NCBI GenBank assembly: GCA_002162925.1
Contig: MABC01000054.1
Location: forward strand, 1 to 64,000
DNA from: Thalassotalea sp. 42_200_T64
GTDB taxonomy: Bacteria; Pseudomonadota; Gammaproteobacteria; Enterobacterales; Alteromonadaceae
Direction: 5' to 3'
Length of the DNA stretch: 64,000 nt
A program made the position numbers and the translations under genes. Shown piece by piece: positions 20,923 through 23,040 of the stretch; the stretch's first letter is position 1, and each line of letters begins with the position of its first letter. A model generated the notes under the pieces. The model made no database searches. It saw only the letters and a program-made list of their open reading frames with translations, and was not told the origin of the DNA.

Positions 20923-23040
20923 ATGACAGATAAGTTGAAAGTAGCAAGTTTTGAATTGGATGATTTGCAAGTTAACTCGAACTCATCTCGCTTGCGTTGG
21001 CGTACCTTATTCAACCTGCGGCAATTATCGGCATCGATAAATCAAGCCCCATATTTTGCCTTGATCAAGGGTGCCGGTGATCTCGACGTCGACCCCAAAG
21101 CCTCCGATTTATATAAACTGGTGTCGCAACTCAATAAAATCAATGACACGCCAGCAATGAAACTTTCGGTTACTCGGGTCGCAATTAATCAGTCCGCGGC
21201 GAAAGTAACTGATAGCGTCACCCGTTATAGCAGGCAACCGGGAGCATTAAAACTGCATACAGACTCCAGCTATATGGATAACCCACATGCGATTTTAGCG
21301 TTCCAATGTATTGTTGCCGACCCGAATGGCGGAGAAACCATATTAATGGCCATTGACGATATTATTGATAATATCAGTGACACCAATAAAAAATTACTGA
21401 GCGCAAAAGTATTCCCTTTTGCCAAAAATAAATCGTCAATTCTTGCCAAGGATGAATATGGTGAATGGAATATACGTTTTTATAAAACTCAGCTCGAGCA
21501 GAGTCTGGAAAAACCAGCGCTTGCGCAAAAATACCTGGACGCAATTGGCGAGCTGGAAGCGAGCATTGCTGATGAAAAGCATCATTTTCGCACAAAAATG
21601 CAACCGGGTGATATGATCCTGGTTAATAACCTTAAAGCCTTGCATGGTCGCTCCAATATTGAAGCCGAAAGTCCTCGGGTTATTTATCGAGTAAGGTCCT
21701 CTGCCTCGCTGCACCAGCTTATCGCCAAATCACCATGGAACCTCATGACATACTGGCTAAGTCAGTTTGTAAAAGACAAAGCAAAACCGCCAATATCATT
21801 AGCATCCCCAGCTCATCTCAATACTGCACAACTGGTAACTGCTGGAAAATTAGCCGAAGCGCTGGCGTATTTTGATTCGTTACCGAAGAAAAGTCAGCAA
21901 CAGGGCGAGCAACAGTTTCTAATTTCAGCCGTTGCCAGATACCTGGGCGATGATATTCTGGCTGACAAAATGCTACAGCAAGCGATTAAACAACAGCCTA
22001 TCGCCTGTCACGATAAGTTGGCTGACAATTGTCCGCGTTTTATCAAGATCAGAGGATTTAATGGTGCTCAATGGATAATTAACAAGAATGAAAAGTTCAG
22101 GCCGAGGTTGAGAGGAGGGCATTTTTCGCTCAAGTTCATGCTCAATACTGAAAAAGCTAACCTCTACCAGCACAATATTCTTGATGCTGAGCAAGCACAA
22201 GCACAAGCACAAACCATTAAAACACTTGGTATCAATTTAATCATCAATACCATAGCCTGTGCCGATCGTATGGCGGTAGACCTGGCCGTGTTAGCCGAGT
22301 TTCAACAACTTACCCCAGAGATCCCGGTAATTAACCCCCCTGACAAAGTGCTATTGACGACAAGAGAAAAAAATTATCAAAGGTTAAACGCCATCGCCAA
22401 TGTTGTTTTTCCGAAGACGGTTAAGGTTTTTCTTGAGCAACAAACCCGGGCTAAGGTAGTGGCAACAATGAAAGCTTCGGAGATTGAATTTCCGATCATC
22501 ATGCGCCCGTGCATTACCCACACCGGCTCAGGCGTAGAATTAATCGACAACAGCGAAGAACTGCAAAGGTATTTGGATAAGCACAAGCATAGGGCGAGTG
22601 ATTTTTATATCATTCAATATTATCAGCTTGCCAATATCACCGGGGTGTTTAATAAGATCCGTACCTTCTGTATTGACGGTAAGTACTACCCTGTGGCCTG
22701 TATATTCGACCGACAGTGGAATATTCATTCAGGGGACAGATATAACTACATGGCCAACAGTGCGGAGTCACAACAAAGAGAGCAATCATACTTTGCCGAC
22801 ATGAACACGTTTCTCGGAGATAAGGCGATAAAGGCCTTAGATAGGATCCGGCAGATCATTGAGCTTGACTTTTTTGGCGTGGATTTTACCTTACTCCCGG
22901 ATGGCAAAATTTTGATTTTTGAATGTAATGCCGCCATGCGCCATAATTTTGATCACGCGCAAAATTTCCCCTATAGCTATGAACCATTACGCAATGTTAG
23001 TCTGGCGTTTGAGCTGATGCTGCACCAACGGGCACGTTAA
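20923..23040 (+). CDS. TauD/TfdA-like Fe(II)/2OG dioxygenase fused to C-terminal ATP-grasp-like domain
   Basis: HxD motif LHTDSSYMDNPHAI, distal His MILVNNLKALHGRSN and Arg RVIYRVR; C-terminal FFGVDFTLLPDGKILIFECNAAMR typical of ATP-grasp. Confidence 0.72.
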   Translation: MTDKLKVASFELDDLQVNSNSSRLRWRTLFNLRQLSASINQAPYFALIKGAGDLDVDPKASDLYKLVSQLNKINDTPAMKLSVTRVAINQSAAKVTDSVTRYSRQPGALKLHTDSSYMDNPHAILAFQCIVADPNGGETILMAIDDIIDNISDTNKKLLSAKVFPFAKNKSSILAKDEYGEWNIRFYKTQLEQSLEKPALAQKYLDAIGELEASIADEKHHFRTKMQPGDMILVNNLKALHGRSNIEAESPRVIYRVRSSASLHQLIAKSPWNLMTYWLSQFVKDKAKPPISLASPAHLNTAQLVTAGKLAEALAYFDSLPKKSQQQGEQQFLISAVARYLGDDILADKMLQQAIKQQPIACHDKLADNCPRFIKIRGFNGAQWIINKNEKFRPRLRGGHFSLKFMLNTEKANLYQHNILDAEQAQAQAQTIKTLGINLIINTIACADRMAVDLAVLAEFQQLTPEIPVINPPDKVLLTTREKNYQRLNAIANVVFPKTVKVFLEQQTRAKVVATMKASEIEFPIIMRPCITHTGSGVELIDNSEELQRYLDKHKHRASDFYIIQYYQLANITGVFNKIRTFCIDGKYYPVACIFDRQWNIHSGDRYNYMANSAESQQREQSYFADMNTFLGDKAIKALDRIRQIIELDFFGVDFTLLPDGKILIFECNAAMRHNFDHAQNFPYSYEPLRNVSLAFELMLHQRAR

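Follow-up and report, generated by a model that had tools for sequence, protein, structure and literature searches.

The window analysed here comprises 64,000 nucleotides, the start of contig MABC01000054.1 of Thalassotalea sp. 42_200_T64. It carries on the forward strand an open reading frame joining an oxygenase to an ATP-grasp domain, and on the reverse strand a convergent four-gene operon. The features are as follows.

20224-20886, forward strand: 220-aa multi-pass membrane protein, 36 bp upstream of the fusion and on the same strand; no Pfam, NCBIfam or PHROGs family.
20923-23040, forward strand: TauD–TPR-like–ATP-grasp fusion of 705 aa with an ATG start, from the ORF call and the family, fold and conservation data.
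21184-21693, forward strand: TauD/TfdA oxygenase core with H112-x-D114, H241 and R252/R256.
21709-22119, forward strand: helical linker, TPR-like by its homologues, the fastest-evolving part.
22120-23037, forward strand: RimK/Ddl/CPSase-type ATP-grasp domain with R528, K578, R580, D654, E667 and N669.
23070-24185, reverse strand: nucleotidyltransferase (Pfam PF14907, NTP_transf_5), convergent with the fusion and 29 bp from it.
24182-25042, reverse strand: HprK-related kinase A (TIGR04352, 305 bits, cut-off 200).
25042-25329, reverse strand: 95-aa PqqD-like protein of the operon, so assigned from where it lies and from homology with other HPr-rel-A loci; itself without a family match.
25395-26120, reverse strand: Asp-rich Tat-leader protein of 241 aa from a TTG start, with up to 22 Asp in 40 residues; candidate substrate.

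The assembly to which the window belongs is a draft of 94 contigs, 87% complete, and in one alphaproteobacterial genome (G1314, L254:4011-6500) the TauD and ATP-grasp halves are adjacent ORFs, divided at the domain junction by a single in-frame TAA. Both facts would fit an artefact or a decaying gene, in which two genes have been read as one. However, the fusion ORF is uninterrupted in eight further genomes, with one more copy cut at a contig edge. Against the ortholog of Thalassotalea sp. ND16A, dN/dS was 0.22 for the TauD part, 0.15 for the ATP-grasp part and 0.45 for the linker, values that indicate purifying selection on both halves and a looser linker. An assembly artefact or a pseudogene was ruled out by the independent orthologues, the conserved active sites and this selection, and we regard it as extremely improbable.

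A reading of the sequence alone had described an unusual fusion of a TauD-like oxygenase, a TPR-like linker and an ATP-grasp domain, and had proposed structure prediction of both domains. The fusion is borne out by the sequence, the model fold, invariant active-site residues and a single clade spanning two classes. The full-length AlphaFold model, built with eight homologues, reached a mean pLDDT of 75.7, and Foldseek recovered from it both a 2-oxoglutarate oxygenase fold and an ATP-grasp fold, the iron-site loop being poorly modelled. The linker description holds for the homologues, which match TPR models (TPR_16 at 2e-5 in L077; about 1e-4 in L261), but the window's own linker gave no TPR match in the Pfam search. 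At the domain level, it is very probable that the protein is bifunctional, combining an oxygenase with an ATP-grasp enzyme.

The N-terminal half passed the gathering score of the Pfam TauD model over residues 88-257 (66.9 bits against a cut-off of 27; 3.5e-18). The HxD, distal His and Arg motifs that had been picked out by eye are present, and residues H112, D114, H241, R252 and R256 are identical in 10/10 fusion or split homologues. On the AlphaFold models Foldseek matched this half to TtnM, BBOX1, GlaH and AsnO (1e-9 to 1e-8, probability 1.00) and to TmpA, matches that place it in the double-stranded beta-helix (jelly-roll) fold. A separate model of the N-terminal half was weaker (pLDDT 63.7, pTM 0.68), its listed matches being again 2-oxoglutarate oxygenases. 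The iron-site loop, residues about 89-113, has a pLDDT below 50, and the metal geometry thus rests on sequence conservation. A profile of this half compared with solved structures found TtnM, BBOX1, a TauD-like protein, TmpA and L-lysine 3-hydroxylase (1e-10 to 3e-6); PseP (8k3h, 815 aa) is a further relative in the PDB, for which our literature search found no paper.

The oxygenase half shares with the BBOX/TMLD/TmpA/GlaH group of TauD/TfdA enzymes the fold, the HxD...H iron site, the downstream arginines and a TauD match over cut-off, and differs from them in being fused to a ligase. All equivalog models scored far below their cut-offs, the best being carnitine_TMLD with 40.6 against 268.3 bits. 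From the sequence and the models, this half is predicted to be a TauD/BBOX-type Fe(II)/2-oxoglutarate oxygenase, with hydroxylation as its predicted reaction. Beta-hydroxylation of Asp or Asn, the activity raised in the sequence-only reading, is only one option among several. The nearest solved oxygenases (TtnM, BBOX1, TmpA, GlaH, KDO1, AsnO and clavaminate synthase) have free amino acids, amines or acids as their substrates. This speaks for an explanation in which the fusion is a small-molecule enzyme: a free amino acid or amine would be hydroxylated and coupled to a second acid, giving a dipeptide-like or amide product; the position beside the operon would then come from joint mobility or co-regulation, with no connection to the Asp tract.

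ATP-grasp ligases convert a carboxylate to an acyl phosphate, which is then joined to an amine (or hydroxyl) nucleophile. The C-terminal half matched CPSase_L_D2 of Pfam at 7.6e-4 and rimK_fam of NCBIfam at 1e-9 (residues 449-673), and it is assigned to the ATP-grasp superfamily only, since the RimK, Ddl and CPSase family models all fall below cut-off. Residues R528, K578, R580, D654 and E667 are identical in 28/28 ATP-grasp rows, and N669 is kept across the fusion clade and its phosphonate-linked sister clade. This segment is modelled with pLDDT mostly 78-95, and Foldseek matched it to Ddl, ArgX and RimK at 6e-11 to 7e-9. In the profile comparison with solved structures, carbamoyl-phosphate synthetase was found at 8e-5 and D-Ala-D-Ala ligase weakly (0.012); CPSase has an arginine at the position of R528. 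The domain resembles RimK, ArgX-LysX, D-Ala-D-Ala ligase and L-amino-acid ligase in its fold and in the Mg/ATP residues D654 and E667-x-N669. It differs from them in lying after a TPR-like linker within a fusion, in forming its own clade and in scoring below every curated cut-off.

Full-length homologues of the fusion, with 32-85% identity, occur in Thalassotalea and relatives, in another gammaproteobacterium and in one alphaproteobacterial family. The close orthologues are those of Thalassotalea sp. ND16A (85%), an Alteromonadaceae MAG (71%) and the gammaproteobacterial MAG NORP105 (68%). More distant full-length fusions (32-36%) are found in the gammaproteobacterial MAG SI073, in two Kordiimonadales MAGs and in the alphaproteobacterial copy cut at a contig edge. 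A search of the relevant alphaproteobacterial order added two fusions (G1297 and G1265) and the split pair of G1314, a genome that also has an unfused sister-clade copy (L264:1-1206). An alignment-based scan of genome contigs returned 14 loci, whereas a single-sequence scan returned none. Phages and viral contigs held no relatives of the fusion, and plasmids only relatives of the ATP-grasp half and one TauD. In the ATP-grasp tree the fusions fall into a single clade (96/91), next to which the G1314 half branches at 89/64, and this clade groups with an unfused TPR–ATP-grasp clade at 100/96. From this topology and the selection on both halves we infer a single fusion event, retained for function. 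The literature search, which covered mainly open-access papers, found none on a TauD–ATP-grasp fusion or on the HPr-rel-A system.

The unfused TPR–ATP-grasp sister clade lies in a conserved cluster together with PEP mutase (TIGR02320) and phosphonopyruvate decarboxylase (TIGR03297), both over cut-off, and an aminotransferase:

L255:6349-9839 (also L256-L261): alphaproteobacterial phosphonate cluster around the unfused TPR–ATP-grasp gene.

More distant ATP-grasp relatives adjoin PLP decarboxylases or SerC-type aminotransferases. Because the neighbours of these relatives make amines, the probable reaction of the ATP-grasp family is to link amines to carboxylates, and the phosphonate setting of the sister clade hints at amines as co-substrates. 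The same neighbourhoods are in favour of a small-molecule role for the fusion. On the other hand, PEP mutase was over cut-off in nine genomes of the unfused sister clade and in 0/11 fusion genomes. The idea that the fusion uses a home-made phosphonate amine is thus unsupported. The lack of PEP mutase in the fusion genomes counts against a small-molecule enzyme, and so does the surrounding of the fusion in the window, where the genes do not make up a complete small-molecule cluster.

A MobA-like nucleotidyltransferase gene (PF12804) precedes the fusion in the two Kordiimonadales MAGs and in G1297. In SI073 the fusion is part of an operon-like run, its start being overlapped by a KAS III-like gene (L077:1916-2896), and no HPr-rel-A kinase over cut-off was found in that MAG; both points fit a small-molecule role. 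Upstream of the KAS III-like gene, a UGSC-like ORF (L077:1296-1919) ends in ...VLCGVSD at its stop, beyond which lies an open stretch; this points to a possible UGSC selenoprotein.

The Asp/Asn-rich neighbour noticed in the sequence-only reading is real (25395-26120, reverse strand); it belongs to an HPr-rel-A operon, as its Tat-leader protein. The operon runs in the order Tat-leader protein, PqqD-like protein, HprK-related kinase A and PF14907 nucleotidyltransferase; with all four parts in one run, the window's copy is a bona fide member of the HPr-rel-A system defined by TIGR04352. In four of four close genomes the fusion is convergent to this operon, in three different chromosomal contexts, a linkage that a small-molecule role does not predict. 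Nevertheless, the fusion differs from the operon genes in not being a core component of the system, as a profile search of the 30 other HPr-rel-A genomes of the window's order found no fusion anywhere in the genome (absent from 30/30), and it was likewise absent from 40/40 operon genomes sampled across the phylum. The fusion-free four-gene operon is common, with 28 further loci of the window's order having a readable Tat-leader protein, and the TIGR04352 kinase is over cut-off in 61 of the 399 sampled genomes of the phylum.

The membrane protein upstream (20224-20886, forward strand) has DD..FHE and HLVED motifs and travels with the fusion in gammaproteobacteria. It adjoins the fusion also in ND16A and the Alteromonadaceae MAG (L006, L007) and, on the opposite strand, in SI073 (L077; 1.9e-33); it is absent beside the fusion in the NORP105 MAG. 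Judged by eye, HPr-rel-A operons (L044-L073) often stand beside apparent PEP-CTERM/exopolysaccharide genes, namely a response regulator/sensor pair and sugar-nucleotide enzymes.

Within the window's order, the densest 40 residues of the Tat protein hold 9-22 Asp in the four fusion-linked proteins against at most 8 in the 28 fusion-free ones. The tract is thus present in 4/4 and 0/28, respectively; the Fisher value of 2.8e-5 ignores phylogeny and is overstated, because the four fusion-linked Tat proteins form one clade. The closest fusion-free Tat homologue (L062, 2e-21) has 3 Asp in its densest 40 residues. In two distant fusion genomes the HPr-rel-A operon is unlinked to the fusion, and its Tat protein shows several DDD/DDDD runs. 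Besides the four close genomes, five fusion genomes of the alphaproteobacterial family possess both the operon and an Asp-rich Tat protein, the enzyme gene being elsewhere in the genome. Counting G1314, whose kinase scored 197.7 against the cut-off of 200 bits, the Tat protein is Asp-rich in 9/9 fusion genomes with the operon. Such separate, unlinked co-occurrence is also not predicted by a small-molecule role.

Across the phylum, G1169 alone among the 40 operon genomes has a close ATP-grasp relative, which is unfused, and an Asp repeat tract (GDGDGDGDGD); the Tat protein of G922 has scattered Asp without runs. Among 30 genomes of the family of G1169, the kinase was over cut-off in 25, and most of the Tat proteins are Asp-rich. 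In G1302, an ATP-grasp homologue is present and the Asp tract absent.

It must be taken into account that six near-complete alphaproteobacterial genomes (G1256, G1285, G1279, G1299, G1289 and G1311; 93-100% complete) encode an Asp-rich Tat protein and neither the fusion nor a close ATP-grasp relative. The idea that the Asp tract requires the fusion was rejected for this reason, and the surviving form of the association is that the fusion occurs with the tract. Since the tract does not track the enzyme inside the alphaproteobacterial family, the association lies between lineages and amounts effectively to two events. Two lineages of co-occurrence are suggestive of a partnership. The proposal that the Asp-rich neighbour is the target of the fusion gains circumstantial support from the linkage in 4/4 close genomes and from co-occurrence in two HPr-rel-A lineages (unlinked in the second), and is weakened by the six genomes having the Asp-rich protein without the enzyme and by SI073, where the enzyme occurs without a kinase over cut-off.

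Our leading account, which we hold tentatively and place only slightly ahead of a small-molecule role, is that the fusion acts on the Asp-rich Tat protein of the adjacent HPr-rel-A operon. The N-terminal Fe(II)/2-oxoglutarate hydroxylase and the C-terminal ATP-grasp ligase would form a bifunctional tailoring enzyme serving the operon, modifying the Tat-leader protein before its export. The ligase would use side-chain carboxylates within the Asp tract as acceptors and, as nucleophile, a small amine, an amino acid or some residue of the Tat protein itself; hydroxylation by the oxygenase would fall on one of the two ligation partners. To the same protein the HprK-related kinase may add phosphate, and the PF14907 nucleotidyltransferase may add nucleotide- or sugar-derived groups. 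The Tat protein as substrate, the amine partner and the order of the steps are all three inferred. That the two halves tailor one substrate in sequence, as suggested from the fusion itself, fits the purifying selection on both of them and the adjacent split halves of G1314. Counted against a role on the Tat protein are the many HPr-rel-A operons lacking the fusion and the small-molecule substrates of the closest solved oxygenases. A small-molecule enzyme, which would also explain why Asp-rich Tat proteins exist without the fusion, is nearly as probable.

The same pair of enzymes is known as separate proteins in graspetide clusters, where a single peptide, corallotide, is modified by a 2-oxoglutarate oxygenase and by an ATP-grasp ligase; in graspetides the hydroxylation of lysine follows its linkage to Asp, and Asp beta-hydroxylation is also known (PMC13097080). 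The fusion could be a graspetide-like cross-linker, forming esters or amides from Asp to Ser, Thr or Lys within the Tat protein and hydroxylating the linked residue as in corallotide. Like the corallotide CorB/CorC and SmaO/SmaX pairs, this would bring 2OG-Fe(II) oxygenase and ATP-grasp ligase activity together on one ribosomal substrate, and Asp side chains are the usual acceptors in graspetides. However, the graspetide clusters have separate enzymes and a precursor peptide, whereas here there is one polypeptide, and what it would modify is no short peptide but a protein of about 200-300 aa, exported by Tat and encoded in the HPr-rel-A operon. Moreover, no graspetide or ATP-grasp peptide maturase model appeared among the NCBIfam hits of the fusion, whose ATP-grasp domain is nearest to RimK, CPSase and Ddl, and the Asp tract varies in length and sequence among orthologues, with no conserved donor–acceptor motif. 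A cross-linker of this kind seems distinctly unlikely.

Returning to modification of the Tat protein by the fusion, a broader form of this account would be an undescribed protein-modification system, in which TPR–ATP-grasp ligases amide-link small amines to Asp carboxylates of Tat-exported HPr-rel-A proteins. In the unfused clade the amine would be 2-aminoethylphosphonate or similar, and in the fused clade a hydroxylated amine, or a plain amine on hydroxylated Asp, on top of the kinase and nucleotidyltransferase modification. We consider this system as a whole unlikely. If the Tat protein is the substrate, one polypeptide would hydroxylate and ligate while coupled to a widespread, uncharacterised kinase/nucleotidyltransferase operon, giving the TIGR04352 operon its first testable chemistry; amide formation by ATP-grasp enzymes would also become linked with phosphonate-type amines and with acidic proteins that are exported. 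Should the substrate instead be a small molecule, the fusion would still be a compact candidate biocatalyst for hydroxylation and amide formation.

Lasso peptides offer a further comparison, as they are tailored by HPr kinase homologues, a nucleotidyltransferase adds hexoses to the phosphorylated peptide, and CanE is an Asp beta-hydroxylase tailoring the lasso peptide canucin (PMC8498205). The window's cluster resembles these systems (paeninodin and pseudomycoidin; canucin) in pairing a kinase and a nucleotidyltransferase for the proposed tailoring of a ribosomal product, and in a possible 2-oxoglutarate-dependent Asp beta-hydroxylation. It differs from them in that the cluster is without a lasso cyclase or protease and the substrate proposed for it, about 240 aa long, is exported by Tat. 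Cassettes in the SI073 MAG (L121-L123) with HprK-like, PqqD-like and asparagine-synthetase-like genes resemble, judged by eye, lasso-type RiPP clusters. Elsewhere in the window, positions 11935-18287 on the reverse strand hold a series of minor-pilin genes of the type IV pilus (PilX, PilW and GspH-like, with N-methylation motifs).
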